Source: Combretum micranthum (taxonomy: Eukaryota > Streptophyta > Magnoliopsida > Myrtales > Combretaceae). From it: a stretch of 64,000 nt of DNA. The translations under genes were made by a program, and so were the position numbers. The notes under the pieces are model-generated. The model was not told where the DNA came from, searched no databases, and was given only the letters and a program-made list of their open reading frames with translations. The stretch spans positions 310,001-374,000 of the forward strand of contig JAMXBD010001215.1 of NCBI GenBank assembly GCA_024138025.1. Direction: 5' to 3'. This document shows positions 920 to 57,951 of the stretch, one piece after another. Numbering within the stretch: the first letter of the stretch is position 1; every line of letters starts with the position of its first letter.

Positions 920-966
920 GTGATCCCGAGGAGGAATATTCATACTCGGAGGATTATTTTGATTAG
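920..966 (+). other. Candidate LTR exon with conserved 14-codon tail (L1)
   Basis: After CTTGATTAG (acceptor-like, ends 919) comes GT and then 14 codons, DPEEEYSYSEDYFD, followed by TAG. Same length and same acidic D-Y-F/Y-x-stop end as in the seven sister LTRs. The upstream coding exon is not identified, so this is a candidate only. Confidence 0.5.
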
Positions 967-1452
967 TGGATTTATCGATCGACTCATCCATAAGTAAGAT
1001 AGATCCTCATGGCCAAATGAGTTTATTTCCTACTTTTTTACGTACTTGGTTGTGCTTGTAGCTAGAGGCACTAGAAGTAGGAAAAGATGAAAATAAATTA
1101 TGTATGATAATATTGGTTGAAAGAATGTTAAGCATACCGAGACATGAATTGTTGTTAATTAACTTATGTTTTACTATTATTCTGTTGGAGCTTGTGCAAA
1201 TTCTGTGATCACCTTTAAATTACTTTAATCATATTCTATGAATTATATTAATTGATTCATGCATATCACGTAGTTAGTTTCATTGCATGAGCTTCTATTC
1301 TCGATGGGACAAGAGTTTATAGCTAGGTGTGCAGTAGCCAGAAATCTGCAAGATGGGCGAATAGGAGCCTGGAAGAACTATGTTGAGATGGGCGAGTAGG
1401 TGCCTGGAATAAACTACATGAGTTGGATTTAAAGAGCTGGAACACTAACCCT

Positions 1453-1503
1453 GAATGGAGGGGTAAATCCATTCAAACATATGATTTCCAGTAGATCATA
1501 TGT
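1453..1503 (+). other. Conserved double hairpin (L1)
   Basis: Hairpin 1 pairs GAATGGA (1453-1459) with TCCATTC (1468-1474) around loop GGGGTAAA. Hairpin 2 pairs ACATATGAT (1477-1485) with ATCATATGT (1495-1503), nine perfect pairs. Counterparts in L2-L7 keep the pairing with different bases. Confidence 0.6.
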
Positions 1504-2057
1504 ATTGCTTGATCACTTGCTTGATGCATTTATATGCTTGATTAATAACTTGCTTGAAATTGTTTATACAAGTACGTTGATTCAGAAATATTCTCACTCA
1601 GCTAGTTATGCTTATACTCCGATAGACCTTTGTTGTAACAGGACAATATTTTTATGCCCAAAGACTTCATATACTCGAGTGGGATGATGTCTTAGTAAAG
1701 CTTATGGAAATCCTTTGAAGATCATAGGTTAATTATCCTTTAATATCTTTTGGTGTTAGTATTATTTGGTTAGGAGAGATTAAGTTGTCATTATGATTGT
1801 TTGGAGAATTATAAGGGAAAAACCCTAAGATGATATAAGGATTATATCCTCTTAATGATAAATTTGACGTTTATTTAAATTCTTGTATGCTATATTTACT
1901 ATCTCAAACTATACATCCCACCGGTGTCTCCTATTGTTGTGATAGATGCCTTACATATGGTGTTGAAAACATTCGCATGACTTCGAGAAGTCATTCTTAA
2001 GTTTTAATACAGTATGTGGTGGACTGTCACGTTTAGGGTACCCTTCGGGGCGTGACA

Positions 2058-2262
2058 GTTCCATTTGGAAGGAGCTGTTGTGGCAGTGGTTGGGATGGAG
2101 GAATACCTGAACCAGACGATTGGTGATCAAGAAAGCTAGAGATTTGACACTCTACTACCTTAACTTTGGATGCTAGGAATTCTAATTTTGCAAAATTTTT
2201 CCATGCCATTTCCAATGCGAATTGATATTCGACTTTCTTGCATTAAAGATAACATAACATCT
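2058..2262 (-). pseudogene. Possible host exon fragment of unknown function
   Basis: Reading leftwards from about 2262 there is an open frame without stops up to the edge of LTR L1 at 2057. It contains AWKNFAKLEFLASKVKVVE and a Ser/Pro/Gln-rich stretch ending LPQQLLPNG. A TTTAATGCAAG acceptor-like string lies just upstream on the minus strand. Composition is protein-like and unlike the surrounding AT-rich DNA, and the frame is not one of the retroelement domains I recognise. I infer a broken host gene exon cut by L1. An unrecognised retroelement gag fragment is the alternative. No function is proposed. Confidence 0.3.
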
Positions 2263-4570: not shown

Positions 4571-4799
4571 AAAAAAAAAAAACCCTAATTTTATAAGATT
4601 AATCCATCTTAGTAACATTTGGAGAGCAATTGGAATTTGCAGTCACTATATCAGGTACATTATTCTCTCTCTCGCTCTGTCTTCTTCTTCTTATTGCTAC
4701 CTACAATATCGTTGGAATTCAATTATTAGTTGATAAGCAATGATGTTTAGATGGTTCTTTAATATTAGGTGTTGCATAAGCTGATTTTTGTCAATAGAG
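4571..4799 (+). promoter_or_regulatory. Possible promoter and 5' leader with telo-box
   Basis: An AAACCCTAA telo-box at 4580-4588 (an element common near plant transcription starts) is followed by a CT-rich leader (4664-4693). A donor-like ATCAG|GTACATT occurs near 4653 and an acceptor-like TTGTCAATAG just before the ATG at 4800, suggesting a leader intron. This is inference from motifs only. Confidence 0.35.
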
Positions 4800-9480: not shown

Positions 9481-9527
9481 GTGACTTGGATCCTAAGGAT
9501 TCATTATCACCGGGTTACTATTACTAA
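9481..9527 (+). other. Candidate LTR exon with conserved 14-codon tail (L2)
   Basis: Acceptor-like TTTCTTTCGTTTAG ends at 9480. GT and then 14 codons, DLDPKDSLSPGYYY, followed by TAA at 9525-9527. Confidence 0.5.
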
Positions 9528-10001
9528 GGGACCAACGACCAATGGCCGAGTTAGTATTACGTCCTAAATTTGTTTCTTGCTTATCATTGTAGCAATTAGA
9601 TGCACTAGATTATAAGGCAAAAGATAAAATGAAATTGCATGATGGGAATTATGGGAGATTATGTATGCTTGTTGATGAGTTGAGAAATGGTATTAAGAAT
9701 ATCACAATCGGGTGATTAACTTATGTTTATTTATAGAACTATAGGAGTGATTGTTTATGGAATTGGTTGATCACCTAAGAATCGGTATCAATAATTATTC
9801 GGCTGGATAAATTAATATGGACATAATCACTTCACGATGGGGATGGAGTATTGGCATATGTTGGTTACCCGTGATCCTTAAATAGCTAAAAGTTGGTTGA
9901 TCATGATCCAAAAACAACATAAATGAATTGGTTGATCGTGATCCATAAACGGCATATTAATTCAACGATAGTACTACAGAATTCATTAATCTACTAACCT
10001 C

Positions 10002-10050: not shown

Positions 10051-12852
10051 ATTGTTTGTTCATGTGGTTAATGTATTCCATACGATTGAATAATTAACTT
10101 GATTGAATGATTTGTTATAAATGTCTTTATGGAAGTATTTACTCACTAGGCTAGTGTAGCTTACGCCCTCACAACTTTTTCTTATTGCAGTATTCCTATA
10201 TATGGTTAAGGCCGATGCATCCTACCGAGCAGGTACTAGAATTATGAGTTTTCATTATAAGTTTTTGTTCTATTTTCTATAGACTTCCATAGGAAACCTT
10301 AATATTTATTGGATAACTGTAAAAAACTGTTTTTGAACGTGATATTATTTTGCGGGAGAATGCCCCTGGAACTTTTGTAACAAATTTTTATGGACTCATG
10401 GTTTATCTTCTGATGCTTAAAGTATGGTAAATTGAACTATTTATCTCTATTGGTACATGTATTCTATTGTTGTAAAGGTATGCCTTGCATCTGCATGAGA
10501 CTTTGGAACGGTTGTGGTAGCAATTCCTAAGTCTTATATAGTATGCGGCGGACTGTTATGTTTAGACTACTTTTTGGGGCGTGAATTTTGAACTCTTTTA
10601 TTGCCTTTTGTCCTTTGATTTACCCTCAATTTGATTAAAATAAATCTATTCCAATCCTTCTTTAATAAGCAATACATACACATTAATTACACATTACAAT
10701 TTCAAGTAAAAAACCAACCAAATTCCTCTCTCTCTCCCCTTTATCTTTCACGCCAGCTTTGGGAGATCCTTGCTACCCATTTATTTTTTTTACTTATTTA
10801 AGTGTCTTAAAACTTCTTTTATCTTTCTCTCTTATTCACACATTAAATCTTTGTCATTCTTCACACTTTTCCTCTCTATTTTCCTCTCTTTCTTTCTTCA
10901 TTTGTTCTTGTTCTTGAAAGTACCCTTACTACCCCTATTCTTTATTGAAGCTCCCACACATATTTCTTCAAGATCCTTTGATAAAACTTTTGTCCAAAGC
11001 TTCCATAGTTGAAGTAGGTAAAGTATAGTGAGAGTTTCATGCATCAAATGATCTTCTATAAGCTTAAAAGGTAAGGATGATGATGCCAAAATGAAACATT
11101 TCTCTTATCCATGATTATTCTCTTGTAATATTATTATTTTCTTGCTAAAAGTAGTTATGTTTTGTAGATCTAACTTTTATGTAATTTTGATTATGTTTAT
11201 GTTTAGATCTATGAATTTATAATTTACTACCATGGATTTCTTTTATATTTATCTTCATATAAAGTGTAGATCTTGGTTTTGAACTCAAACAAAAATAGTG
11301 AAATTCGTATCTAGGCAAGACCCAAATTTAAAAACCACTTTCCAAGTGTCAAAATGGAAGTTTTACTTGAAATAATGAAGGCTTAATGGGTATATATCAT
11401 CAATACTTCATTTTTTGTTGTTCAAAGGTGATTTCCAAAGATTATTTTTCAAAACAAAATTCTATTTTCGGATCTAGACAAAGGCACAACTTAAAAACAT
11501 GTTTTCCAACTCAAAAATGAAGTTTTTATTCAAGATATGGAAGGCTCTTAAGATATGATATGTAAGAGATGAATTTTCATAAGTTTAGATAGATTTTATC
11601 AAAAGGTATGTCCAAAAATAAATTTTGTAAATTCGGATCTCAACCAAGACCAATTTTGAAAACCCATTTTTCAACACCAAAATGAAGGATTTATTTAAAA
11701 AAAATGAAAGGCTTATGCAATAGGTATCAATATGAGATGTTTTTGATAAGTAAATGGTAGATCTACTAAAGGAGATTCTCAAAATAGGAAGAGATTACAA
11801 ATATAAAATTTAAGTTTTATCCTAACCTTGTGAAATTCGGATGGTTTCAAGATCATGCCTTAAAAACCCTTTTATCAACTCAAAAACTTGAGTTTTATAT
11901 AAAAAATGAAGAGTATATGTCATAAATATCATCAAGTAAAGATTTTTATAAGTTAAGATGGGATTTGCTAAGAAAAACATGTAGAACAAGGAGTAGAACT
12001 AAAGTAGGAAAATTTGAGTTATTTGTCATTTTAAGAAATTCGTAATAATGGATTAATGGTATGAAAACCCCTATTTTTCAAACTCAAAATAGAAGTTTTA
12101 TTAAAAAAATAAAGTCCTTAGTGGCTAGATATGGTTAAGCCTTAAGTTTCTAAGTGTCAAATGAGTTTACTTAAAGGAATTACCACAAAAACAATTTTTA
12201 CAAAATTCGAATTTTGGGATGAACCATATTTAAAAACATGTTTACAAAGTGTAAAATGGAAATTTTTGTTTGAAAAATAAAGGCCTTAAGGAATATACAT
12301 AATAAAGGCTTAATTTTAACAAGAATAAATATATTTTATCAAGGAATTTTTCTAAAAACAAGTGGGATTGTCAAGAATACAAGATTAGCCTTTCTAGTTG
12401 ATTTTTGATAAAGTCTTACAAGGAATAAGTTTTCTAAAAATTTGTTTTATTCAATATCATCAAGAACATGTACATATATATCTCATGACATGTCATTTAT
12501 GATAGTAACTTGCTCATATTGCATGTATGCTTGCTTTAGATAGTAGAAACTTCATGAACTTTCATAAAATCAATTTTCTAAAATTGTTTTTGCTACTAAT
12601 CTGAACTGATCAGATCTTTTCGAAGCTTCAAAGTTTTCAAAACTTAAATATGATATTATAATTAGATAGATCTTTCAAAGTAGATAGAAATCGATATATA
12701 ATTTGCTAAATTCCGAGTTAAAACGACCAAGTTATGGCCGTTTTAAGTTGGAATTCCTACGTAGTACGAGAATTACGAATTTTCTAGTTTTGTTAAATAG
12801 TTTGGATTAGTTAAGTGATGAAATACATATTAGGGTATTTTTTCCTTTTTAG

Positions 12853-12899
12853 GTGACCCCGAAATCGATGATTTCCTACTACCGGATTACTTTTACTAA
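12853..12899 (+). other. Candidate LTR exon with conserved 14-codon tail (L3)
   Basis: Acceptor-like TTTCCTTTTTAG ends at 12852. GT and 14 codons, DPEIDDFLLPDYFY, then TAA. A GTGAGT donor follows at 12923, giving a 70-nt exon. Confidence 0.5.
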
Positions 12900-13428
12900 G
12901 AGATCGGTGATCCAATAGCCGAGTGAGTTTTCCTCTTATTTTGTTACCTTGTTTGTGCTTGTAGCTAGTTGTATTAGAATTATAGGAACAAGATAAAAGC
13001 TTATATGAATGGGGATGGGATAATCGATGAGACTTTGATGTATGTATGCCAAAGAATACTAAAGCATATTAAAACCATGATTCGATTGGATAACTACATT
13101 GTTCATATTATTTTTGCTTATGTATATGATATTGGTTGGTCACTCTAAAGAATGTATGAATAATTTGACCTAAGCAAAAATAAATTGGTCATGCATCGCA
13201 TCAGACAAGTTGCATTTGGTAGCGTGCTACTCTTACGCAAGTCGATCAATATGGTCCGAGGATTCATTTGGAGAATGAGACTCGGTATCAGAGTTCATTC
13301 ATAGGAACTAAGGTGCACCGGAGATGCATCCTATGTATGAGCCTAGCTGAGTTGAGTGCTATGAGCCTGGGGGGCGTGGGGACTAGCAACAGTCGTATAG
13401 GCTTCCAATACCGTCCCTAACCCTAGAT

Positions 13429-22900: not shown

Positions 22901-23324
22901 AGTTTTCTAAAAATTTCTTTTATTCAATATCAACAAGAACATGTACATATATATCTCATGACATATCATGTATGTTAGTAACTTGTTCATATTGCATGTA
23001 TACTTGCTTTGGATAGTAGAAACTTCATAAACTTTCACAAAATCAATTTTCTAAAATTGTTTTCGCTACTGATCTAAACTAATCAGATCTGTTCGAAGCT
23101 TAAAAGTTTTCAAAACTTAAATATGATATTAGAATTAGATAGATCTTTCGAAGTAGATAGAAATTGATATATAATTTACTAAATTTCGAGTTAAAACGAC
23201 CAAGTTATGGCCGTTTTAAGTTAGGATTCTCGCTTAGGACGAGAATTACGAATTTGATAGTTTGTATGAGATAGAGTGGATTAATTTTGAGTTGACATAC
23301 TCATTTGGGTATTTCTTTCCTTAG

Positions 23325-23371
23325 GTGTCTTTGCTATCGAGGATTCGTTGCCACCTGACTATTACGATTAA
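23325..23371 (+). other. Candidate LTR exon with conserved 14-codon tail (L4)
   Basis: Acceptor-like TTTCTTTCCTTAG ends at 23324. GT and 14 codons, VFAIEDSLPPDYYD, then TAA. GTGAGT at 23394 gives a 69-nt exon. Confidence 0.5.
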
Positions 23372-23898
23372 AAAATCGGAGTCCAATGGACATGTGAGTT
23401 TTCTTCTTATTTTGTTACCTTGTTTGTGCTTGTAGCTAGTTACATTAGAATTATAGGAACAAGATAAAAGCCGATATGAATGGGGATGGGATAATCGATG
23501 ACACGTTGATGTATGTATGCCAAAGAATACTAAAGCATATTAAAACCATGATTCGATTGGATAACTGCACTGCTCATATTATTTCTGTTTATGTATATGA
23601 TATTGGTTGATACTTAAAGAATGTATGAATAATTTGACCTAAGCAAAAATAAATTGGTCATGCATCGCATCAAACAAGTTGCATTTGGTAGCGTGCTACT
23701 CCTAGGCAGGTCGATCAATATGGTCCGAGGACTCGTTTGGAGAATGAGACCTGGTATCAGAGTTCATTAATAGGGAACTAAGGCGCACCAGGGATGCATC
23801 CCATGTATGAGCCTAGCCGAGTCGAGTGTTATGAGCCTGCGGGGTTTGGGGATTAGCAGCAATCGTGTAAACTTTCAATACCGTCCCTAATCCTGGAT

Positions 23899-28902: not shown

Positions 28903-30226
28903 ATGAAGTAGGAGAGGTAGGAGACGAGAACGTCATGCATTCAATAACCCTTCAGCTGAGCCGGAAAACCCACAAGCAGGACAACCAGCAGCCCCACCAA
29001 TTCAACAAGCCAATCCCCCACCAAATCAACAAGGCGATGTTTGGGTAGCTATTAACCAATTAACAGGATTGGTCAATAGCTTCATACAGCACGCGCAGAA
29101 TGTGTCGCCACCAACTATTAATGCACCTGAAGTAACAGTAGAAGCACCAGCACCACTGAAAACTGAATCCTAAACTGCCCCCCTTGCCAGCACCACCGCC
29201 ATCTCGACCTTATGAAGTTCCTTACCAGATTTCATCAAAAGTAATCGATACTTTGATGAGAGTTTTGGAAAACCTGATGAAGTGAAAGATTGGTTAGCGC
29301 TGGACTATGGAACTTATATGCTGAGATTCAATGCAAGAGTGTGGTGGGAATCGAAGAGGAGAGAGTTACTACCACTTGTGACTTGGGTAACCTTCAGAAG
29401 GGAATTCTTAGAGAATTATTTTCCTGGAAGTTTGAGAGTGCAGTACAGTGGAGAATTCCTTCATATATCCCAAAAAGGAAGAACAATCGAACAATATAAG
29501 ACCGAGTTCAATCGCTTACTCTAGTACGCACCAGAATCCTTTAAACAGAGTGAAGAGTTAATAAGGCAAGTCTTTCTTAGTGGCATGGATGAGGACTTGA
29601 GGATGCGATTGGAAGAATTGGATTTAAGGACCCTTCTGAATTGGTTGAAAGAGCTTGCATTATAAAAGGAGATAAGAAGAGAAAGAGTAAAGTGTCAGAG
29701 AAGAGAACCTTTGTGTTTGGGAAGAGGACTCAAGACAGTTATGATCCTAGTTCCAAAACGAGAAGTTTAAGTCCTTCAACAGCTATAAAGGAAGTGCTAA
29801 TGGCAAAAGGGAAGCATCGAAGGTTAGGTATCATGCTGGCAATGTAAGGAAGAGCATTACCCAAAGAGATGCCCCCTGCTCCAACATAAATGTTATTTCT
29901 GTGGAGACCCTAGCCACAAGATTAATGATTGCCCGAAGAAATCTTCCACCGTCTGCTTTATATGCAAGCAAACTGGGCACTTTGGCAACGAATGCCCGCA
30001 GAGGACTAATGCCACAACTAGATCGCTTGGTACAACTACAAGAGCTACATCGACAAAAATTAGGAATGGAGGAAACAATCCAAGCCGTTCTGGAGCAGCT
30101 ATCCATGGAATGAGGATTTACAACTTGGAAGGGCAGTGGGTGTATGAAGAATCAGACGATGAAGGAGCTGAGATAGCAGCCTTAGATGGAGATTGTAACT
30201 TCGACTTTGGTCTGGTGACAGGTTAG
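28903..30226 (+). pseudogene. gag: Tekay gag, decayed
   Basis: Begins at an ATG (28903) after which a one-base shift leads to the Arg-rich start (SRRGRRRER), then a Pro/Gln-rich linker. The capsid-like core lies in 29282-29640 (VKDWLALDYG, ENYFPGSLRVQY, FLSGMDED) and is followed by a basic stretch. Two CCHC zinc knuckles occur at about 29890-30000 (CFFCGDPSHKINDC-type and CFICKQTGHFGNEC). It would form the virus-like particle and bind the element's RNA. Frames change at least three times and stops occur at 29171 and 29522, so no full Gag can be made. Confidence 0.8.
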
Positions 30227-30369
30227 ATTCAGAAACTCCTTTACCTTTATGATGCAAGTTCTTAAGTTTCATACATTCGATTCTTAACCTAGAAAGTATA
30301 AGTTTCTATACAAATTGATAGTTTAAGTATACAAGATTCGTGACTAGTATAAAATTCGAGTGTAGGTTA

Positions 30370-33300
30370 CATACATGTAGCTAGTCAAACCGCTTATGCT
30401 TTGTTCGACATCGGAGCTATGCATTCCTTTATCACCATTACTGTGGCTAAACAGACCGGCTTACCTATAGATACCATCGCTACCAGTTTTCGAGTTAAGA
30501 CCCCCACCGAAAGCGTTGTGTCAACTAATGAAATGCTTAAGGATTGTCCCATGGAGATACAAGGATACTACACTAAGTGTGACCTGATAATATTAGAAAT
30601 GAGCAAATATGAGGTGATCTTAGGAATGAGTTGGTTGACGTCCATTAAAGCTTTAGTAGATTGTAGACGAAAAGAAGTGAAATTTAAGAATCAATATGGG
30701 AGTGAGATAATATTCAAGGGAGAATCCACGGTAAGGTTAAACTCATTTGAGTTATTAATGGATGATGAAGAGATCAACTTGAGTAACGTAGATAGAGGAG
30801 AAAGAAGAAGAGAAACCTGAGTTGGAAACTATACCTGTGATTAAGGAATTCCTGGATGTATTTCCTGACAGATTACCTGGATCACCACCTAAGAGGGAAA
30901 TCAATTTTGAAATTGACCTAATAGTGAACACAGAACCAATATCAAAGGCATCCTATTGATGGCACCAGTCGAGCTAAAAGAGCTGAAAACTCAATTGCAA
31001 GACTTGCTAGACCAAGGTTTCATTCGACCAAGTGTATCACCCTAGGGAGCACTAGTTTTGTTCATGAAAAAGAGGGATGGTTCTATGCACCTATGCATTG
31101 ATTATCGGGAGCTCAATAAGTCACTATCAAGAGTAAGTATCTACTTCCAAGGATAGATGATCTTTTTGACCAACTTCAAGGAGCTTGTGTCTTCTCATGA
31201 ATTGATCTACAGTAAGGATATCATCAGTTAAGGATCAAGCTAGAGGATGTACCTAAGATGGCTTTTCGAACCTGTTATAGACATTACGAGTTTCTGGTAA
31301 TGCCGTTCGGTTTAACCAATGCACCAGTAGCTTTTATGGATCTCATGAACCGGGTGTATAAACCTTTTTTGGATAAGTGTGTGATAGTCTTTATAGATGA
31401 TATTCTGATCCACTTCAAGACACGGGAACAACATGAAGAACACTTGAGAATGTCATTACAAACCTTGCGTGAGCATAAGTTGCATGGCAAGCTATCTAAG
31501 TGTGATTTCTAGTTGGATAGGATATCTTTCTTAGGACATGTCATATTTAGAGAAGGTATATCGGTAGACCCTGAGAAAATCAAAGCAGTAATTGATTGGA
31601 GACAACTTAAGACCATCACTGAAGTGAGAAGTTTTCTTGGATTGGCTAGATACTATAGGAAGTTTGTGAAGGACTTTTCTAAAGCCAAACCCTTAACACA
31701 GTTGACTTAGAAGGATGAAAAGTTCATTTGGACTGATAAAAGAGAACAAGGTTTTCAAGAACTCAAGAAAAGGCTTGTCTCCGCCCAATTTTGGTGTTAC
31801 CTGATCTCGAGAAACCTTATACGGTGCATAGCAATGCCTCCATAAATGGCTTCAAGTGTGTGTTGATGCAAGATGGAAAGGTGATCGCGTATGCCTCATG
31901 ACAACTCAGGCCTAATGAGCAAAATTACCCCACCCATGACACTTGGAACTAGCCATCGTTATGTTTGCACTTATGTTACGGAGACATTACCTATATGGGC
32001 AAAGATGCGAGATCCACACCGATCATAAGAGTCTCAAGTATTTATTCACGCAAAAGGAGTTGAATATGCGACAACGAAGATGGCTAGAACTTATCAAGGA
32101 TTATGACCTTGGGATAAACTATTGCCTAGGAAGAGTAAATGCTGTCGTGGATGCCTTAACCAAGAAGAATCATGGAGAAGTAGCTACCTTGCTCACTGAT
32201 AAGAAGGAGCTAGTAAGGGAATTTGAGAGAATGAGTATCGAATTCATAGGGCAAAATGTGGAAGTAGAAATCGCCAGCCTAGTCATGGAACCCACCTTAG
32301 TAGAAAGGATCAATGAAGCTCAACGGTATGATGAGGTAATTCAAAAGATTGAAAGGAGAGGTACAAGAAGGAAAGTATAAGGATTTCACAATAGTGAAGA
32401 TGAGGTTGTGAGAATAAAAGGAAGATTATGTGTTCTAGGTGATGATGAAATAAGGAAAGAAATCATGAGTGAAGCACATCATTCAGGATATACAATGCAC
32501 CCAGGAGGAACTAAGATGTATCAGGATCTGAAAAGCCACTACTGGTGGAATGGCATGAAAAGAGACATAGTCGATTTCGTGATGAAATGTCCAACATGCC
32601 AACAAGTAAAAGTGGAACACCAAAGACCCAGAGGACTCTTGAAACCTTTGATGATATCCGAATGGAAATGGGATCGAACTACGATGGATTTTGTATGTGG
32701 ATTATCAAGAACATCTGCAAGATATGAGCCATTTGGGTTGTCATTGACCGATTGACAAAGACAGCTCATTTCCTTCCAATCAACATGACGTATTCTATGG
32801 ATAAGTTAACTAGAATATATATCAGAGAATAGTACACTTCCATGGAGTGCTCGCAGGAATAGTCTCCGATCGAGACCCAAGGTTCATATCTAAATTTTGG
32901 ACAAGCTTACAAAGATGTTTGGGAACGAAGCTACAATTTAGCACTGCCTATCACCTGCAAACAGATGGTCAATTAGAAAGAACAATACAATCTCTGGAGG
33001 ATATGTTGCATGCTTATGTAATAAGTTCAAGGTAGTTGTGACGCACACCTACCAATAGTGGAATTTACCTACAACAACAGCTACCACTCCATAATTCAAA
33101 TGTCACCTTATGAAGCATTGTACGGAAGGCGGCGGTCACCATTGTTCTAGAACGGACCAGACTTGGGACAAGATGCGGCTGACAAGGTACGAATCATTCA
33201 ACACAAAATGAAGGAAGCCCAAGATCGACAGAAAAAATGGGCGGATATGAAATGGCGTATTCTTGAGTTTAAGGTTGGAGACCATGTATATTTGAAGGTA

Positions 33301-33714
33301 AACCCCATCAAGAGTATTCACAGAGTCCAGGCGCAAGGAAAATTGAGCCCGCCATATATTGGACCTTTTGAGGTGCTTGAAAGAGTAGGAGATCTTGCTT
33401 ATCGTCTGGCTTTGCCTCCTAAAGTCTGGAATCCATAATATATTTCATGTATCGGTTTTACGGAAGCACATACCATATCCTAGCAGAATCACAGAATTGG
33501 AACTAGTATGGTTAAAAGAAAACCTCACTTATGAAGAGCACCTGATTTAGATCCTAGATCGTAAGGTACAAAAGCTTCGAAACAAGAAGATCAAGAATGT
33601 GAAAGTTCTATGGAGAAATCACTCACATGAAGAGGCAACCTGGGAAGTCGAAAGCGATATATGCCAGAAGTATACAAGTTTGTTCGAAGATTCAAGTATG
33701 AACTTCAAGTTTTG
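30370..33714 (+). pseudogene. pol: Tekay pol (protease, RT, RNase H, integrase, chromodomain), decayed
   Basis: Domains in order: aspartic protease at 30395-30700, with active-site region FDIGAMHSF in which the usual Ser/Thr after Asp is Ile; RT at 30870-31710 with DYRELNK (31099), MPFGLTNAP and the catalytic FIDDIL (31396-31413); RNase H at 31800-32150 ([10 protein letters not shown]); integrase with zinc-binding H-H-C-C segment (32480-32610) and core residues in TMDFVCG and VSDRDPRF; then a chromodomain at 33520-33700, which in this clade targets insertion to heterochromatin. In-frame stops (for example at 31199, 31510, 31708, 33147, 33548) and frameshifts inactivate it. Confidence 0.9.
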
Positions 33715-36034: not shown

Positions 36035-36081
36035 GTGAAGAAAGAACTGATATCGCCTTCTCGGAAGATTATTTCAACTAG
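36035..36081 (+). other. Candidate LTR exon with conserved 14-codon tail (L5)
   Basis: Acceptor-like TTCAACTTGTTTAG ends at 36034. GT and 14 codons, EERTDIAFSEDYFN, then TAG. GTGAGT at 36098 gives a 63-nt exon. Confidence 0.5.
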
Positions 36082-36519
36082 GAGCGATCATCATGGAGTG
36101 AGTTAATCCCTTACTAATTATGTTTCATTGAATAATAGCACTAGAGAGTAAGGGAAAAGATAAATGAATAAATGATGTGTGATTTGGATTCATGATTGAA
36201 TGATGTGGTTGTTGAATAAAAGCTAAGTATATCGAAAGAGGAATTGATGAATAACTTATGTTTTCTTGCAATGGTATGATGCATATTGTTTTGGTCACCT
36301 TCAACTTGAATTTAACGATAATTGAATAAACCAATATTAAAAATGATTCATGCATAACATATTGTGAGTCACATTTTTTTGTTGCTACTATTCTTCGTGT
36401 GGAGAAACGAGGAGTTGTAGTGGTGGCTAGTAGGAGCCGAAAAGTCTACAGGGCAAGTAGGAGCCAATAAGTCTACAATTATTGATGGTTGTACGGGCCG
36501 ATAGCCACCTAACCCCCGA

Positions 36520-37265: not shown

Positions 37266-37266
37266 G

Positions 37267-41594: not shown

Positions 41595-42107
41595 GAGGTT
41601 AGGTGCTTCAGGCCCATACGATCATAGATTTCAATTTTTCTCATTTAGATTGTGGTTGATACATGTGCCTACCCACACATAATTTTGTAGTTGATACAAG
41701 TGCCTACACCACTAGCATTTCAATTCCGCCATTGCACTAACATTCGAGTTTACAGGCCCCTTGTTGCCCAGCTATTATGCCTTCTTCCTACAAAGGTATA
41801 ATAACCTATGCAATGTGACTCACATATGGTATGCATGGTCAATTTGATTATAAGATCATGACATATTAATTAACAATTTATGGGCAATCAAAAATATTGT
41901 AGACACTTCAATTTTATACTGAATTATACAAATATTTACAACAAGCTCATTTCGATATTCTTATCATCGATTCACCCAAGTAGAATTCACATACACACAA
42001 TCAAATTTTATCTTGCCCTAATTCTAATGCCACTAACATTACAAGTACAATCATAAGCTTATAATTTAAAGATAGTAAACTCACTTTGCCATGGCGCGAA
42101 AATCCAC

Positions 42108-42153
42108 TTAATCGTAATAGTCCTTAGGAAGGTCTAATCCATCTCCCAAGTCT
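42108..42153 (-). other. Candidate LTR exon with conserved 14-codon tail (L6)
   Basis: Minus strand: acceptor-like TTTCTTTTGGTTAG, one base, then 14 codons, DLGDGLDLPKDYYD, and TAA. One base shorter at the junction than the other copies. GTGAGT follows at 42084-42079. Confidence 0.5.
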
Positions 42154-46691: not shown

Positions 46692-47342
46692 TGTTAGTGA
46701 TTGTGCCCTAGGCCAATTACTGGATATTGTCATACAAAGACATTTCTATTACATTGTTTGCATGTTTACTTTATAGTAGGATCCACGAATAATTTAATTA
46801 TTCTAAATGTCCCTAGATGCTCATTATTGTGGGAATAATAATGAATTTAATCTAGTATGAGGTTTGACTGATAATTATGGGATGTTTATTTGTATGGAGA
46901 TTGTTAACCCCGGAAATTTTCCACCCAAGTATATGACTCTAAAGTAGAATATTTAAACTAGTTAATAGACTTAGATCCTAATAAAAGCCTAAGAATAGAT
47001 CAGTGCATGGAAGTTGGCTAGTTAAGGATTTAGAGATCGAATAAAGAACTTCTTTAACCCTATTTGATACCAAAAATGAGATTTCGTATCTTGAATGGAT
47101 AATTCAAGATATGATTAAAAGAAAATCTAAATCTCAAACCCGAAACTTGTTTTACAAATAGATTTAAATAGGAAAATATAAATATAGAGATTAAATGATT
47201 GCTTTTGGAACTCAACCATGACTTGAGACTAGTACAGTGAGTAGTAATGAACCTATATTTGGATTTAAACTTTAAATTCAAGATTTATAGATAGTATTAA
47301 TAGTTACTAATTAGAATTCATGATAGGTATTGACAACTAAAG

Positions 47343-47367
47343 ATATATATATATATATATATATATA
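47343..47367. repeat. (AT)n microsatellite
   Basis: Alternating AT tract inside L8. Confidence 0.9.
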
Positions 47368-48539
47368 GTTCCTCTATATCAAATGCGTTATTAAGTAACT
47401 AATTAACTATGCTTATAGATAAGAAACAATAACCTAAAGATAAACCGTTAGGATTATAAATACATAATGAAAACATAAACTGATGAATAACTCAAGATCT
47501 GAACTTCAGATAAATAATTGAATCACGCTATTGTTCAAATCATGGTTTTCTTAAGCTATTGGAGCCTAAAACAAAAATTGACCTAATGAGCTTAAGAAAC
47601 CTTAATCACGAGAGATAAAATTCTAAAAATAATTAATCACGTATATATAAAACTTAAAATTGTATTATTTGATAATCTAAGTATTTTGTATAACCCTATA
47701 AATATATATTTGTACAAAAACTCTCAAATATTAGCTAATTTGTACCCGTATAACTTGCTAAATTATCTTAATACTAAGTTAAATAATTAAATATATATAG
47801 TTTTTCGTAGAGAGCTTGGCTTGGAGTGCATGAAGAAGAAGGAGTCGAAAATTTGATCAATCATGTACTCATTTGTTAACAAAAGCAACCTAAAGACCAA
47901 TCAAAGGATGCCAACTCAACCATTCATTAATTACCATGAAAACAACAGATCAAATGTAGCCAAATGAGGAGGGAAAATCGAAGGAAATTCGGAGGAAAGC
48001 ACAGCTGCAAGTTTCTCTCTTCTTCCTTCTATATATATATTGAATACTCATAATGAACAAACAAACACCCACAACTCTCTCTCGAAAATTCTAGATCAAA
48101 ACTACTCCTAAGCAGCAGTCAAAACAAACTTAAAACAGAAATCAAACCGATCAAATCATTCAAGTCCGGATCAAAAGAAAAACAATACGAAAAATACTTA
48201 GAAACTAGTTTAAAGGTAAGTTGATGAAGTTCGAATGGTTTTCTTTTAAATTTAAGGATTAGAATTGACTTCTGATAATCATAGGAACATAATCAACACA
48301 AATACAAGCTTCGAATTCCATCGGATCGGCTCAACCAAGGTAAAAATCCGAAACCCTACTTATACTTTAGTAAGATCGAAATCTAAGATTATATGTATGT
48401 AGAAGTGTTAAGAGTTGTTGTATTTCTATATATAAGATATAGAAGCACTTAGAAATGATTTAAGAATGTTTTTAACGTGGAAAATTTAAGAAATATGAAT
48501 TGGATCATCGAGGAAGATGACGAACAGTGCTAACACTGT

Positions 48540-48830
48540 CTATAAGCCGGTAGTGTAAACGTTCAATGCCGACGGCTTACAAGGATAGGCCGGTGGTGTA
48601 TAGATGGCTTACACTGAACAGAAGCTACGTAAAATTTATTTTCATGTAAAAAAATGAACGAAGGCCGGCTATCTGGGATTCTACGTTGGCGGTGTAGATA
48701 TCGACGTACGTTGAAAGCCGACAGCTTTCAAGCCGGTGAAATCGATATGAAATATTAGTTAAAACAAAATCAACACCGGCACTTGGGTTTCAAAGCTGGC
48801 GGATTTGAGGCTTTGAAACCAGCGTACACT
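48540..48830. repeat. GC-rich hairpin cluster in L8
   Basis: Several GCCGG-containing inverted repeats in AT-rich DNA. The clearest is GGTTTCAAAG (48786-48795) with CTTTGAAACC (48811-48820), ten perfect pairs. Same style as the array at 19060-19830. Confidence 0.6.
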
Positions 48831-48913
48831 TATATCTCTTCTACGAAAGTTTGTTTTGATATGAACAGAATTTATATATACATATATATATGCAATAAAC
48901 CTACTGAATATAT

Positions 48914-48936
48914 TATATATATATATATATATATAT
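48914..48936. repeat. (AT)n microsatellite
   Basis: Alternating AT tract inside L8, between the hairpin cluster and the tail exon. Confidence 0.9.
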
Positions 48937-49358
48937 GATAATACAGAATTCAATAAGTAGATAAGTAAATACAAATATTTAGAATATTTTGATTAACATT
49001 TGATAATTCTTAAAACCCTAGAATTAGAGAAAAATATTAAGTGTTAATAAAAGTTATAAATAGTCAAATATTTGCTCTAAATGGATAAAATAGGTAAGAA
49101 TGGAAATTGAAAATAAGCTAAATTTATGAGTAATGTGACTTCTAAAAATAACAAAATAATTATATGAGATAAATTAGGAGAAACACAGCGACACTAAGTA
49201 ATAATGATTTCTTATTTGAGTTCGATAAAGAATAACATAAAATTAGTATTAGTCACTACCAAAGCCTGATAAATATCAAGTTTAGGACACTAGCCACATA
49301 TAGGAATTTAGCTATATAATTTATATTTTATTGATGAATACTTTATTCATCTTAATAG

Positions 49359-49405
49359 TTGACTTTGATAACCTAGAAGATCTTCCAGCTGATTATTACG
49401 ATTGA
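49359..49405 (+). other. Candidate LTR exon with conserved 14-codon tail (L8)
   Basis: Acceptor-like CTTAATAG ends at 49358. Two bases (TT), then 14 codons, DFDNLEDLPADYYD, and TGA. GCAG|GTGAGT at 49420 gives a 61-nt exon. This is the most divergent LTR, yet frame and tail are kept. Confidence 0.55.
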
Positions 49406-51189
49406 GTCAGTATGAGCAGGTGAGTAATTCAGTCATATTGTATTGTTTGTGCTTATAAATAGCTGAACACATAATACAAAGATAATCAAATTAATGTTTG
49501 TTTGGAAGTGTATTGTGATCTGATTGAATGGTTGCTAAGTTATCATTTTAAAAGAGATAATACAATGATTGATGTTGTGAAGTAATAGAATGATGATTGT
49601 GTGTAATGTATGATCGCCATGAAATTGAATAAGAACTGTTGACTTAATAGAATAATCTGATCATGCATTGCACGTACTGCATTATTGCAAATAAAGATGG
49701 ATGACAGCCTGCTACGTATTAATATTTCGGTTCTCTATTAACGCTTGGTTGTTCTAATTGGTTAGTTCTTCCAAGGTTTTCTTTGTTCCGTTGGTTCTAC
49801 GGGAACTAAGTGGTAACGAAGAACGCCGCCCGTAGTATCACTTTGAAATGATTAATACTTAGAGAGTTTCTAAGGGGGATACAGGAAATGGTCTGTTAAA
49901 TTTACTATATTTAAAGTGATAACCCTAAAACGAGAAATCTTTGATTTTCCTGTAAACTTAGTCTCTCCTGGGCAGGTAGGTCATAGAGTAATGGTTCTTC
50001 AACCCTGAAAAAGAGCCTAAATCTTTTTCCTGTTTGGATTCTAGATCATCCAAGCTTGTATCTATGCATATGGTTAAGTGCTTGCATACATATGATTTGC
50101 TAATGACTTGTGTGATGTATAATATGTCTGGTTATTCACTAAGCTGTGGTTTCGCTCATACTCCAACAGTCTTTTTAGGTTTACTCTACGACCTTGGTTA
50201 GTCACTTCGAGGAATATGGCTCCGGTAAGGGCTTAGGAGCTGGAAGTTTATGGTTATACTTTGGATTTATGGTTATGTTTTCTTAGAATAGATTACTTAG
50301 TGCTAATGTATCAGTTTTGAACTTCAAAGAAGACTATTTGGTTTGTAATAGTTCTATAATGCTTATGATTAAGATAACAATTATTCACTAATTTATTTCT
50401 TATATGTATTCATCATTTCTTATCAAGCAACTAAAGGATCCTGTTGTTTTGAAAACCTGTCATTCTCTGAAGGTAATCTAGTAATAGTATTCAAGTGAGA
50501 CTTGTCTACTGCTATTAGGGTACCCTCGGAGCGTGACAGAGATACAAATAAAACTCATAAGTACATGTTAAAGAACTATGCACTGGACTGACCGCTTTGA
50601 GATCACTACATGGATTAGTGTCATAAGTGATTCTCAAAATAAAATGTCATCGTATCCTCAAATCTCAAATCACCATGGATTCCAACATGAAGAATATTAT
50701 GTTTCAACTCAATCAAACGTTGTCTTTAACTTGATAATTATAAAGGTTGAGATTGGGCATAATGTAAATCATGCAGAGGAAGTTGGGTGATTAAGATAGA
50801 ATTTGTCTCTCTAGTTGTGAGAGAGATATCTCTGAGCCCCTCGATAAGTGAGACTGAGAAATGCATGGCCGTGCTCAAATGAATTGATAGTGTGACCAAT
50901 TTTATTTGTTTTTATCAGTTCTCTTAGAAACCGAGAAATGATAAGATTGAACGATATAATGGTGACACTATCCATGCCTTATGTTCAATCTAGATATCAT
51001 GTGAGAAAAGGATAATGACATAAGTTATGGATTAGATCAAAATCGGATCACCAATCTTCACTTAATCTGGGTAAACATAATGTCTTGCTAGAGGCCGCTT
51101 ATGTTTTGTTGACTAAAATTATTTTAGGTCAACTGTCAACATTAAGTGAACCTATAGGGTTACACAAAAAAGAATGAGTCAAAAGGATC

Positions 51190-51803: not shown

Positions 51804-52507
51804 GACTACGACAGCGTGTTCAGGTGAGTAGGGGCACATCCTCCATCATTAATCCAAGCCTTTGGGGTGCTGCTCAAGGTTGAGGTCATCATGGGGGGGC
51901 CATTCGACTCTTCCCCTATTTCCTAGCTCCTTTCTTTTAGCCATTTTCATGGCTAGTGGATGTCGGTGGGGACATAGGGGCATGTTTTCCCTTTTGATCC
52001 CGGTCTCTTAATGGCTTATTGGGTATTGGATAATTATGGGGGATCGATTTTGTCCTCCTTTTCCTAGTGTGCTAAGTTCTTGTTTGATTGAAATTCATTA
52101 TTTCCCTTGAAGGTTGATGGATTAGCTCAGACTTGTGTTTGTGAGGTCGAGGAGGTGAAGTTGTGTTCAACCCAAAACCACATTTTCGAGTTGTGGTTAG
52201 CTAGGTATGGGAGTACTCCTCTAATTTGAGGTTCCATTCTTTTCAGAGTTTTCTAGCTCAAAGTTGTGTTTAGCTTGAACAAGTTTGTACTTGCGAAATT
52301 TTCGCTTTGTATCCTATAGCTAGAATACCGGTCAAAACTAACCTAGTTGAGATGAGATGCTTGTCAAAACTACTGTAATGACCTTCTTAAATTAATGAAT
52401 TCTCTTACAACTCATTTGGGACTTTCTTTTATATAAATGGCATGGGCAATTATTGGTGAGCTCAACCTCATTTGTGTGTGTGTTTAAGTGATTTGAGCTC
52501 TTCCAGG
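51804..52507. other. Internal non-coding part of the Tat-like element
   Basis: DNA that was joined to 27277 before copia C1 inserted. No domain recognised on either strand. It lies between the antisense ORF and pol of the Tat-like element. Confidence 0.4.
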
Positions 52508-52845
52508 AGAGTTATCCTTATGAGGGAGTTACCTAGGCTCATAAGGAGTTTTCCTTGAGAGGTTATTACTTGAGCTTACGAGGGAAGTTACCCTTAAGAG
52601 GGAGTTACTTGATCTCATGTGGGGAGTTACCCTTAAGATGGAGTTACTTGAGCCCATAAGGGGAGTTAACCATGAGAGGGAACTACCTAAGCTTATGGGG
52701 GTTACTTGAGTTCACAAGGGGAGTTACCCTTAAGAGGGAGTTATCCAAACTCATGCAAGGAGTTACCCTTAAGGGGGAGTTACTCAGGCTCATGAAGGTA
52801 GTTACCTTTGAGAGGGAGTTTCCTGAGTTCACTCAGTACGAGAGG
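52508..52845. repeat. 39-bp minisatellite in the Tat-like element
   Basis: About eight imperfect units of 39 bp, each with GGGAGTTACCCTTAAGAG and GGAGTTACTTGAGCTCAT-like halves; one unit is shortened to about 22 bp. Tandem repeats between pol and the 3' LTR are a known trait of Tat-lineage elements. An open frame runs through part of it (52672-53004) but is explained by the repeat. Confidence 0.85.
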
Positions 52846-53039
52846 GTAGAGTTCTTTAAACTCCCAAGGCCCCTGTTAAATATTTTTTGTTTGTTCTTTT
52901 GCTATTACATGCATAAGGGAAAGATCTTAAGGTGCGTTTTTAACATGGTATCTTCATTTCATTTGCGATTTTTTTTCTCATATTCATGCTTTACACATAA
53001 GTAAGTTGTAGCTATTTAAAGAATTTTCTCAAGTTGTTT

Positions 53040-55541
53040 GCATTCCAAGTTATAGGAATGAGCTCGCCATCTAGCGTTTCAAGCTTATACCCTCCATTTC
53101 CCAGAACTTCCATTATACTAATGGGATCTTCCCAGTTTAGAAAGAGTTTTCCTCGAGCTTCTTCTAATCCTATTGCTTCTAACTTTTGCAAATGAGGTCC
53201 CCTGGGAGAAAGACCATATACTTGACTTTCTTATCGTAGTACTAGGTTGCCCTCTGTTGGTAGGCAATGACCCTGTTGCTCACTATGTCTTGAGTCTCTT
53301 CAATGGCATCGCGCCTTGCATGGAGTCTGACCTCGTTGATTAGTTCATCATAGGATTGGGTTCGGATGTTTGGTAGTTCGAGTTCTATAGGTAGGATGGT
53401 TTCCAATTCGATGGCTATACGAAAGGGGGTTTTATCAGTTGGGGTTCGTCGAGTGGTGTAGTATCTCCATAGGATGCTTAACAGTTCATCTACCCACCTG
53501 CTGTTCTAGCAATATACCCTAACCTTTATACTCTACATGATGGTTTTGTTGATTAATTCGACTTGACTATTTACTCGAAGGTGTGCGATCAAGGTGTATT
53601 GTGCGGTGATGTGGTATTCGTCATACAAGTCTTTGATTCTTTTGGTGCTGAATTGCATGCCATTGTTCATTACTATGGAGTATGGCATGTCGAACTTGAC
53701 TATGATGTTATGTAGATAAAGTGTTTGATGTTTTTTCCCATAATTTTGCTACTGCCTCAGCTTCTATCCATTTTGTGAAATAATGACACCTGACTATTAT
53801 AAACTATCTTTGTCTCGTCGAAGGAGGAAACGGGCCTAGTATATTTGATCCCCACATAGCTAATGGCCATAGGCTGGTGAGGCAGAGTGGATTTGTACTT
53901 GGGGTGTAGTCGATCAGGGTAATCTTTTGGCACTTTCACATTGTTGTACGATTCTTTTGCAGCAGCCTTCATTGTTAGCTAGAAGTAGCCAGCTTGCACG
54001 ACTTAAGTATGCAATGATTGGGCTTTGACATAGTTGTGCTGCACTCCCATCATGGAGGTCTTCTAGAACTCATTGTCTTTCCTTTGGGAGTAAAGAATGA
54101 AGGAAGGGGAAGCTAAAGCCCCTTTTGTATAGAAATTCGTGGATCATGATGTAGTTAGCTGCTTTGTACATCAACTTTTTTTCTTCCATTTTGTTTGAGG
54201 GTAAGTTAGGGTGTCTTATCTAAGGTACTTCTCTATAAGTGTTGTTTAGCTTGGTGGTGGAGTTATCTATTCTAGGTTTAACACCTCATGAAGCATTGTA
54301 ATGGCAAGTTTTTTAGGGAGGAACTCAAGGAAGATTTTATCCTCAGCCTTTCCTAGGTTGAGAACTATCATGAGGCAAGTTTAGAGAGCCCAACGCCTTA
54401 TGAATTATCGGCTCTGGATATCTTACTGATATCCTAAGAGGGTAATTCATTTGGTGAAAGATTGAACTGCTTTTAAGTATGTGGTATTTCTTGCCTCGTA
54501 CATACCTTTGACATGTTGCACCATAAGCTGGGAGTCGGAAAAGATTTTGAGGTCCCTTATTTTTGCTCCAATAGATATAGTAAGCTTATACCTAGCTAAT
54601 AGGGTCTCGTATTCTGCTTCGTTGTTGCTTACAGGGGAACCAAATTTCAAAAGTGTAGCTGATTTTGACTCCATGGGTTCCTTTTAATACTAAGATAGTT
54701 CACTCCCCTTCATGTGGAGGGTCCACACAAGCTTTTGTTTGTTGTTAAGCTCGGGTGTCCCAGTATATTCAACCATGAATTCTTCTTGAACTTGTGCTTT
54801 TATAGCATCACACGGTTAGTGTTGCACCCTATAAGCATTGAGCTCTATCACATATTTCATCATTCTTCCTTAAACATCCAACTTTTGGAGAATTGCCTTA
54901 TCGTATTTCGATGAGGACAACAATCAGGTGCACCTAAAAATACGGATGCAGGCGACGTGCTGATATTACACCTACTGGGGAAAAATTTTCTAGTTTTGTA
55001 TATCTTTACTCCGATCCTTGGAGGATATGGATGATGTAATATATTGGTCGGTGTTGTTTCCCTCTAGCTTATATTAACACAAATGAGAAAGCTTGATCGC
55101 TCACTGCGTGGTAATGGTATAATACCTTGCCTTGGAGTGGGGTCATTAACAATCATGGTTTTGTTAAGAATTTTTGAGCTCGTCAAAGGCTTATTGCGAT
55201 TTTTTCGTCTACTCAAATTGATTGGTTTTTTTTTTTTAGGATTTTGAAGAATTCCGAGCACCTATCTTGCTTTTAAGGAGGAATCTGCTCAACGTAGTTA
55301 TTCTACCAACAAGATATTGCAATTCTTTTATCGATGTAGGTAGCGTCATTGTCAAGATTGCTTTGATTTTGTTAGGGTTCGCTTTGATCCCTCTTCAAGA
55401 CACTAAATAACCTAAGGGTTTTCCTAACAAGGTACTAAATGTGCTATTCCATGGATTAAGCTTTAAATTATTGAAGCGGAGCTGATCAAAGGTCTCTTGG
55501 AGGTCATGTAAGTGTGTCTCTATGTAAGCTTCGACTTTCTT
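53040..55541 (-). pseudogene. pol: Tat-like pol: end of RT, RNase H, integrase, decayed
   Basis: Minus strand, from 55541 downwards: RT thumb region (EAYIETHLHDLQETF, LKLNPW, GKPLGYLVS, IKANPNKIKAI) at 55540-55250; RNase H with NNEAEYETLLA and FSDSQLMVQHV at 54635-54510; integrase core and C-terminal part at about 53970-53050 (MAISYVGIKYTRPVSS segment, RRTPTDKTPFRI, AYQQRATQYYDKKVKY). The RT active-site half is cut off by LTR L7 at 55542. RNase H of this type and the antisense ORF place it in the Tat/Ogre lineage. Many frameshifts and stops. Confidence 0.75.
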
Positions 55542-57904
55542 TGTAAACCAAGCTTGACTTCATGAACCGAATCGGAAATCGAAACCCTAAATCGGAATAG
55601 CTAGGGTTAGAAAAAACCTAGAAACCCTAAGTCCGGCTTCACCGAGAATAAAACCATAGAACTTTTGAGAGCAAGTTGATCTAGATTATAGTTCTAAAGA
55701 ATATATCGAAACATAAAAGATCAGTTTTTGGGAAATTATTCGTTTCAAACCCGATCGGAATCTATTCTCGAAATTCGATCCTGGAACTCGGAAATAAAAA
55801 AATATTATATAAGATTCTTTAGAATCGAAATTTAATAAGAAATTCAAAAATATATTTAATATAATTATTTGGTTTATAAAAATTACAGTTTTAGCCTTTT
55901 ATCGTATTTTTTTTACTAACTGGTAATTTAATTGTCTAATCAACTTTTTGAATTCTATTCATTACTATTCACAAGTACAAGCTCATACCCTACTCACACT
56001 CACAAGCCATGCCCCTACTCTTATATCCTTACAATCTAACCTTACCTCATTACATCATATTCCTTACGTTTACTTTTCCAATACATTTTATTACTTAAAT
56101 TACTTTATTAAATTTGAATTTTTCTACACAAAACAACACTCTTTCTCTCACTCTCCTCTCTTGGCCGATGTAACCCCCTCCTATTTCCCTGTCATTTGTT
56201 TTATTTTTTCTCCCTTTATTAATTCGCACAAACCCTAATACCTCTCTCTATACATATCCTTTTATGCCTTCTCATTTACACTTTTATTCTCTTTCTTCAT
56301 TTTCACTTTTGGAAATTTACAAACCCTCTCTCTTTCTTTGTCCTTGCCTGAGCTTCTCCACACACACACTCATACACAATTTGTTTTCCTTCAAGTCCTC
56401 TTGTCTTACAAGCTCAATAGGTATAGATCTATACACTATCACCACAAAAACATGTAATGGCAAGATCATTCATGCATAGATACACACAAAATCCCCATGA
56501 GCTTTCATGCTGGGGATGTGAAATCACTAAAATATGATGATCAAGCCATCACAAGTTGTGGATCTTATGTTTTGAGCACATATTTTTGTCATGATCATAA
56601 TATATGTTCATATAGTGATGATCTTATGTAGGAATCTTGCTACTAAATTATTATCATAATAGTATACTTTCATTTCATACATCTAACATGATCATCACAC
56701 TAAGATCTAGCTTCTAAACATTCATCATTTACATGTCATTTGAGATCTCATGCATTTATTTTGTTTAGAATGAATAAATGACCATAAAGGTTTTGTCTTA
56801 TGTAAATAAATGTTTTCTTTATTTAGGATATTTATGAAGATGCGCCAAAAAGCTCAAGAACAAATTTGGTTTCATCAAAATCAACTTTTGTGAATTCGGA
56901 TGAAAAAAGAGCTATATTTTGAAAACCTATTTTTCAACTCCAAAACATGAGTTTTATGTGAAAAATGAAGGGCTTATGGAATAGATATCAATAGCAGATG
57001 ATTTTGATAAGTTAATGGTAGATTTACTAAGAGAAATTTTTCAAACAAAAAATATTTACAAGATAAAAAATTTAGGTCTTATGTTAGTTACATGAAATTC
57101 GTAACTAAGAAAAGATGGTGTGTAAACTCCTATTTTTCAAACTCAAAATGAATTTTTTATTAAGGAAATAAAGTCCTTAAGGGATAGGGTTAGTGGAGCC
57201 TTAATTTTCAAAGTATCAAATGAGTTTTTCTTAAAGAAATCACCCCAAAATCATTTTTACAAAATTCGGATCTAGTAATAGCCCATATTTAAACATTTGT
57301 TTACAAAGTGTAAAATGAGGATTTTTGTTGAAAAATGAAGACCTGAATGAATATATATAGTAAAGACTTGATTTTAGCAAGAATAAATCAATTTTATTAA
57401 GGAAAATTTCTAAAACAAGTGTGACTTGTCAAGAATACAAATCTAGTCTTGCTAATTTAGGTATTCATGACATCTTGTAAAGTAGAAGCTTTCTAAAAAT
57501 ATTCTTCTAATAGAATATCATCAAGAACATACATATAATAAGCTCATAACATACCATTCATGATAGTAACTTGTTAATATTGCATGCATATTTGGCATGG
57601 ATAGTAGAAACATCATAACTCTTCACGAAAGCAATTTCAAAAATGGATGTTTGGCTATTGATCAGAACTTTTTGAGACATAATAGCTTTCAAAACTAAGG
57701 TATTATATTATAATTAGATAGATCTTTCGAAGTAGATAGGAATTGGTATATAATTTGCGAAATCCCGAGTTAAAATGATCAAGTTATGGTCGTTTTAAGT
57801 TGGAAATTCTATTAATGACGAGAATTACGAAGTTAATAGTTTTTATAAAATAAAAAGGATTAGATATGATTTGAAATACTCATTTGGGTATTCCTTTCAT
57901 TTAG

Positions 57905-57951
57905 GTGACTCGGATCTTAAGGATTCATTACTACCGGACTATTATTACTAA
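57905..57951 (+). other. Candidate LTR exon with conserved 14-codon tail (L7)
   Basis: Acceptor-like TTCCTTTCATTTAG ends at 57904. GT and 14 codons, DSDLKDSLLPDYYY, then TAA. GTGAGT at 57974 gives a 69-nt exon. Confidence 0.5.

Follow-up and report, generated by a model that had tools for sequence, protein, structure and literature searches.

A candidate spliced coding exon inside the long terminal repeats of Tekay/Del-like chromoviruses of Combretum micranthum

Background

This report concerns a short segment, here termed exon E2, inside eight long terminal repeats (LTRs; L1 to L8) of Combretum micranthum. They lie in a window of 64,000 nucleotides (nt) of assembly GCA_024138025.1 (contig JAMXBD010001215.1, positions 310,001 to 374,000 of the forward strand), belong to one broad retrotransposon family, are 3.3-3.6 kb long each and carry, about two thirds of the way in, an acceptor-like site followed by 14 open codons and a stop. 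An earlier note on the window had proposed that these codons form a selected coding exon, without assigning the start of the protein. An analysis of the window and of related copies in the 1.86 Gb assembly supports a coding exon in the LTRs and leads us to think that E2 is probably a spliced exon of Tekay/Del-like chromoviruses which functions at the two ends of a single RNA.

Results

The LTR elements of the window

L5 is a 3' LTR preceded on the same strand by gag, reverse transcriptase (RT), integrase and chromodomain pieces. Gag, RT and integrase stand in the order characteristic of Ty3/gypsy chromoviruses, and a chromodomain (PF00385) at the integrase end scores above the cut-off at 33554-33709 of the window and in the fetched locus L091, its score in L097 being 15.7 bits and below the cut-off. 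From their motifs, the elements are putatively assigned to the Tekay/Del clade. L8 is judged by eye to be a solo LTR flanked by the target duplication GAAAC, L6 is likewise a solo LTR, and L1 is either truncated by the window edge or decayed. The 5' LTR of the L5 element was not found, and no search for a primer-binding site was made in that element. In several LTRs the terminus is GGGGCGTGACA or a sequence near it. Target duplications were also seen in five of 20 fetched LTR loci (L043, L044, L045, L050 and L055), and 3,984 junctions from LTR to TGGTATCAGAGC occur genome-wide; both the target duplication and the primer-binding site of an LTR retrotransposon are thus present in the family.

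Likeness between the repeats amounts to 81% for L2 and L7 and to 89.5% overall for L3 and L4. Around the exon, 12756-12929 of L3 and its counterpart in L4 (~23230-23400) are 58-76% alike in 50-nt windows, a low value that would reflect either the exchange of a subfamily cassette or very fast change.

Organisation of E2 in the eight window copies

All eight sites and their peptides were recovered as the earlier note had described them (Table 1), while its generalisation on the ending needed amendment. The ending D-Y-[YF]-x holds for most copies, L2 reading G-Y-Y-Y, and is better written [DG]-Y-[YF]-x. Seven copies have AG and 2 nt before the first codon; the minus-strand copy L8 has 1 nt there, and its reading frame thus stands one base out of register with the acceptor. 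As the note had stated, all three stop codons are in use (TAA five times, TAG twice, TGA once) and the D-Y-Y codons vary mostly at third positions: averaged over pairs of copies, the three codon positions differ by 0.38/0.40/0.62 when all 15 codons are counted and by 0.14/0.21/0.51 in the final five with the stop. The strict pattern (AG, 2 nt, 14 codons ending in [DG]-Y-[YF]-x, stop) occurs seven times on the plus strand and never on the minus strand of the window, as against a mean of 0.1 and a maximum of 2 in 100 order-1 Markov simulations of both strands.

Alignment of the eight copies reveals in most of them the order CTCAT, a pyrimidine stretch, TTTAG or a variant, GT, 14 codons, stop, a spacer of variable length, ATG and a GTGAGT donor. 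The ATG and the donor behind the stop are parts absent from the earlier note. They are not universal in the window, since the donors of L1 and L2 are degraded and L3 has lost its ATG; when the LTR alignment was scanned for donors, GTGAGT exceeded the threshold in four of the eight copies.

Conservation of E2 in the genome

A conserved block lies ~100 nt upstream of the exon, and a 37-mer from it matches the genome 43,338 times with at most three mismatches (reversed control, 0). By this block alone 53 copies were picked, namely the first places listed on contigs C1-C4 and C6 that match it exactly. The 14 open codons and stop are present in 49 of the 53, the AG in 52, AG plus open frame in 48 and the GTGAGT donor in 47, and the length from ATG to donor gives phase 2 in 49 (phase 0 in one, no match in three). 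Spacing from stop to ATG, measurable in 50 copies, is 15 nt in 31, 14 nt in 17 and 12 and 44 nt in one each; in loci resembling L6 it is 4-6 nt, as judged by eye. By eye again, 31 of the 53 copies are of a kind which we call type B. The LTR of L011, of which L040 is a duplicate that was left out, apparently does not have the CT-rich promoter and leader region described below and has kept the exon. A further candidate, a 13-nt exon with a weak donor in the conserved block, was dropped by eye on account of its poor donor and its absence from L6 and L8.

Selection on the acidic frame

To assess selection on the 14 codons, whose product is acidic, 61 open sequences were arranged in 27 disjoint pairs (54 sequences) and amino-acid differences were compared with those expected if the same substitutions fell at random. 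The four block-chosen copies with a broken frame, three copies missed by the pattern (L082, L084 and L088), and L087 and L089 were left out. The acidic frame shows 97 differences where 119.5 are expected, with none of 2000 simulations as low, and no such deficit is seen in frame 0 (124 vs 117.9) or frame 1 (120 vs 109.9). Because only open copies had entered, the test was rerun with simulations that avoid stops, and the deficit persisted (97 vs 118.5; 0 of 1000 as low). It is also found in the copies outside type A, a further kind described below (62 vs 75.9; 0 of 1000), and in the window copies taken alone (19 vs 23.6; 25 of 1000; three pairs). In the LTR alignment, a BLOSUM-based scan ranked the exon segment first on the plus strand for five of the eight references and over both strands for three of the eight. 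Most copies are presumably dead and drifting neutrally, diluting the signal. The claim of a selected coding exon is therefore supported at the level of sequence, because the deficit of amino-acid change is confined to this frame and the codons, stop, AG and donor are conserved in the 53 copies; the spliced-like loci described below lend further support.

The Pol end and its donor

Nine elements have a readable Pol end: that of L5 in the window, L011, and seven of sixteen regions fetched for the purpose (the region L095 began too late, and L097, from the same element, supplies what it lacks). Behind the chromodomain each carries a donor-like site, which reads CAG^GTACGC/T or AAG^GTACGT in six (^ marks the exon boundary) and CAA^GTACGC, CAA^GTATGA and AAA^GTGCGT in one each. 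In seven of the nine it is the best of 5-21 GT sites within at most 300 nt, and in seven of the nine, by eye, it lies 7 nt behind the motif TTYGAR, which corresponds to phase 1. The acidic exon requires phase 1 (one base plus GT), and the window donor, with 33695 as last exon base, is in phase 1 with the E2 acceptor at 36035. The Pol frame runs without a stop up to the 3' LTR in L097 and L100. Since the pol end carries a phase-1 donor, the missing start of the protein most likely lies in the pol open reading frame (ORF) ahead of the 3' LTR, and not in the LTR.

No pol end was found in the type B regions L093, L096 and L103-L106, nor in L092 and L094. The internal region of type B elements (L086/L103 and L093/L096) is perhaps short, ~3.5 kb, if the paired LTRs belong together, and these elements are perhaps non-autonomous.

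The leader exon and two spliced-like copies

Upstream of E2 most loci have a stretch rich in C and T. A TATATAA-like box frequently precedes it or lies inside it, and donors follow it, with maxima mostly 1,490-1,610 or 2,170-2,310 nt before the block. This stretch is a candidate leader exon (E1), separated from E2 by intron 1. Seventeen leaders were scanned by script, with assumed E1 starts, and a donor was picked in 15 of them (likely mis-picked in L056) and in neither L046 nor L049.

The joined E1^E2 pattern of one group matches the genome twice, once with 2 and once with 3 mismatches, and its reversed control nowhere, compared with 4,082 unspliced E1 donor sites. In both, L107 (C574:606514) and L108 (C452:522379), the leader runs into the exon at exactly the base predicted, and the surrounding sequence differs. 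They look like LTR copies from which intron 1 had been spliced before insertion; LTRs lacking this intron can arise from spliced RNA if it lies within the R region. Junction patterns Pol^E2, E2^Gag and E2^E3 (E3 being the exon described next) have no matches in the genome; this is neutral and speaks for neither side, being expected because RNA which has lost the primer-binding site or polypurine tract, or is joined past E2, would rarely be inherited.

Downstream partners of E2

The phase match with Gag was examined in one locus per type. Gag in the type B locus L086 opens without ATG behind the primer-binding site (TTTCTAG^G AGA CTA CCT), and the LTR exon of that locus, ATG GCT GA^, is in phase with it (phase 2); phase 2 likewise fits in the type A locus L059 at AAACAG^A CGA AAC. 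In all seven L6-like loci a 46-nt exon E3 (^G..CG^GTAWG) converts phase 2 into phase 0 of the next exon, at which an extra 5' ORF starts. Type A loci (L010, L011, L013, L027, L059 and L060) have instead a 42-nt exon (HEFIWLRPRQATAQ / YEYLWLSPRTRGHQ, by eye) and an extra ORF, VSLGETRE.., in phase 0. A frame-0 reading of E2 into E3 in type A was open in the copies translated by eye and was rejected for want of a selection signal. Among 551 candidate homologues of the extra ORF none reached E <= 0.001; in Pfam, its first piece matched no family and its second DUF3408 alone, below the cut-off. E2 thus has the conserved acceptor and donor and the phase-matching partners of a spliced coding exon, the extra ORF of type A excepted.

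Features of the window

The features located in the window are collected in Table 1. In addition, Ty1/copia-like remnants flank the minus-strand L8 (39863-46529, by eye), an ORF at 62883-63242 resembles by eye a piece of a hAT-type transposase, and 52493-52820 is an imperfect tandem array with a unit of 39 nt.

Table 1. Positions of the predicted exons and associated features in the window (in window order; ^ marks the exon boundary)
Feature	Position	Strand	Details
L1 E2, 5' part	920..966	+	GT, 14 codons DPEEEYSYSEDYFD, TAG; ATG 1009; donor reads ATGAGT, GT lost
L2 E2	9481..9549	+	codons 9483-9524, TAA to 9527, ATG 9542, degraded donor GTTAGT at 9550
L3 E1, CT-rich leader exon	10800..11017 (start approximate)	+	donor AGTAG^GTAAAG
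L3 E2	12853..12922	+	codons 12855-12896, TAA to 12899, ATA for ATG, donor GTGAGT at 12923
L4 E2	23325..23393	+	codons 23327-23368, TAA to 23371, ATG 23386, donor GTGAGT at 23394
gag, RT and integrase remnants	29216..32755	+	PF03732, PF00078, PF17921 above cut-off; L5 element by position
Pol C-terminus of L5 element	33554..33712	+	PF00385 26.9 bits (cut-off 25.1); donor-like TCA A^GT ATG, last exon base 33695
L5 E2 (3' LTR behind pol)	36035..36097	+	codons 36037-36078, TAG to 36081, ATG 36093, donor GTGAGT at 36098
L8 E2	42085..42153	-	codons from 42152 down, TAA, ATG 42092, donor GTGAGT at 42084; 1-nt spacer after AG
L6 solo LTR	46902..50538	+	target duplication GAGAT on both flanks, by eye
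L6 E1, leader exon	48062..48215 (start approximate)	+	TATA-like stretch near 48030; donor AAAG^GTAAGT
L6 E2	49359..49419	+	codons 49361-49402, TGA to 49405, ATG AGC AG from 49412, donor GTGAGT at 49420
L6 E3, 46 nt	50179..50224	+	between TTTTAG and GTAAGG
L7 E2	57905..57973	+	codons 57907-57948, TAA to 57951, ATG 57966, donor GTGAGT at 57974

Discussion

A model for E2

An LTR is copied to both ends of its element, and a single stretch in it may thereby come under two coding duties, which would result in the order acceptor, short ORF, stop, ATG and donor; one exon with two jobs is the simplest account of this order. We accordingly lean towards a model, with somewhat less assurance than towards the splicing of E2 itself, in which one LTR exon supplies both ends of the proteome, starting Gag or the extra ORF from the 5' LTR and ending Pol with an acidic D-Y-Y tail from the 3' LTR. 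E2 would probably lie in the R region. The 5' LTR would present the promoter, the CT-rich E1, intron 1 (~1-2 kb) and then E2, with its ATG close behind the stop of the acidic ORF, and the GTGAGT donor of E2 would be joined to Gag in phase 2 or, through the 46-nt E3, to the extra 5' ORF. At the other end, the donor behind the Pol chromodomain (CAG^GTACGY) would be joined in phase 1 to the same acceptor, and Pol would end in an acidic tail of 14 residues, ..D-Y-[YF]-x-stop. The spliced RNA, having lost the primer-binding site and the polypurine tract, would serve translation, and the unspliced RNA could be reverse transcribed. We infer the splices at the RNA level, above all that from the Pol donor to the 3' LTR acceptor, from signals and phases in the DNA; the division of labour between the RNAs and any role of the tail are likewise conjectural.

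Alternative explanations

The acidic ORF may instead be the end of a regulatory upstream ORF in the Gag mRNA leader (E1-E2), stopping just before the Gag ATG. Consistent with this, the stop lies 12-15 nt ahead of the ATG in 49 of the 50 measurable block copies, E1-E2 is the sole junction with evidence in the genome, and an open in-frame AUG is present in the E1s of L053 and w7. These are two of the 15 E1s, however, and in the remaining 13 an in-frame AUG is absent or followed by a stop, as far as AUG starts, the only ones considered, are concerned; the E1 of L6 lacks an ATG and contains a stop two codons ahead of the junction, and the part of E1 fetched for L107 has no ATG either. Because just two of the scanned leaders have an open in-frame AUG, the acidic ORF would not normally begin at a leader AUG, and a start in E1 was set aside in view of the in-frame stops and the want of a conserved AUG. 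An upstream ORF would also leave the phase-1 Pol donor and the open Pol frame of L097 and L100 unexplained, and we consider it unlikely.

Slightly less likely again is that E2 is the last exon of a spliced element protein other than Pol, such as Gag, the extra 5' ORF or an unseen one. In its favour, type B keeps the acidic frame in spite of the lack of a pol end in L096, the one type B 3' LTR flank read far enough. A strong donor is present at the Pol end of type A and L6-like elements, which speaks for Pol, although the comparison covers Pol-end donors and is a weak test of this alternative.

That selection acts on splice or leader signals only, the amino-acid pattern being a by-product of constraint on the RNA, would agree with the presence of the ATG, donor and splice signals in E2. 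It appears improbable, as the synonymous excess is limited to one frame, all three stops are used and the last five codons vary mostly at third positions. Chance or neutral LTR DNA would accommodate the few broken copies, but is hardly credible against the seven strict matches in the window, the intact frame of 49 of 53 copies and the selection test.

Several observations weigh against the model of one exon with two roles. The acidic frame is broken in four of the 53 block-chosen copies and in L108; in type A alone the deficit is not significant (24 vs 27.8; 122 of 1000), and type A tails include variants such as DHRY. At the Pol end, the nine elements are related and their counts are not independent, the donor ranks second of 17 GT sites (6.0 bits) in the L5 element and fourth in L011, and L098 and L099 have it 6 nt, not 7, behind TTYGAR. 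Frames assigned by the script itself gave phase 1 in six of the nine, although frameshifts or a wrong motif can mislead it; for L011, L099 and L102 the spacing from TTYGAR, judged by eye, was used in place of the automatic phase. The type B tail may belong to another protein. As to the 5' end, a TGA in the Gag frame adjoins the acceptor in L060, and no ATG was found that fits the phase-0 42-nt exon and extra ORF of type A, the E2 ATG not fitting them. Finally, TAGGT is common to the E1 donor and the E2 acceptor, so that a microhomology deletion could mimic splicing in L107 and L108, and the E1^E2 patterns of two other groups had no genome matches.

Implications and comparison with known systems

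If the model of a shared LTR exon is correct, predictions made on unspliced frames would misplace the ends of Gag and Pol in a plant element of great abundance (the block next to the exon has 43,338 copies in this genome), splicing at both ends would separate the RNA for translation from that for replication, a conserved acidic tyrosine tail would stand behind the chromodomain, and it would be seen how a single repeat can bear two coding duties. Coding sequence inside an LTR has precedents in nef of human immunodeficiency virus and sag of mouse mammary tumour virus, both in the 3' LTR, and in Ty1, in which the 5' LTR contains the start of Gag; E2 resembles them in this respect. To our knowledge, each of these uses the LTR coding part at one end only.

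For group II chromodomains, a 2025 review describes the mechanisms by which they function as yet to be elucidated (PMC12786077), and the acidic tail, behind a chromodomain that may or may not be of this group, would be a concrete part to test. Tekay group 2 of sunflower comprises Tekay/Del chromoviruses with a 5' additional ORF (PMC11728184). The likeness to the present elements consists in a chromodomain Pol and in an additional ORF that, in type A and L6-like loci too, is placed after the 5' LTR and ahead of Gag, the comparison being one of position only (PMC11728184); the difference is that the main text of that source does not contain the terms "splic" or "intron", nor, in those words, an LTR exon or an LTR start codon (PMC11728184). 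Plant LTR elements generally have no introns, according to the review (PMC12786077). Ogre, EVADE and BARE1, the last of which produces a Gag-only RNA (PMC3735527), are alike in having spliced and unspliced RNAs with differing coding roles (PMC12786077, PMC6317226, PMC3735527), and differ in that the exons here are in the LTR and one is proposed for both ends. An LTR exon shared by both ends was not described in the titles and abstract openings covered by a literature search that was not exhaustive. Compared with this literature on plant LTR elements, E2 would extend retroelement splicing by a new variant, in which one repeat-borne exon is placed at the beginning of one protein and at the end of another.

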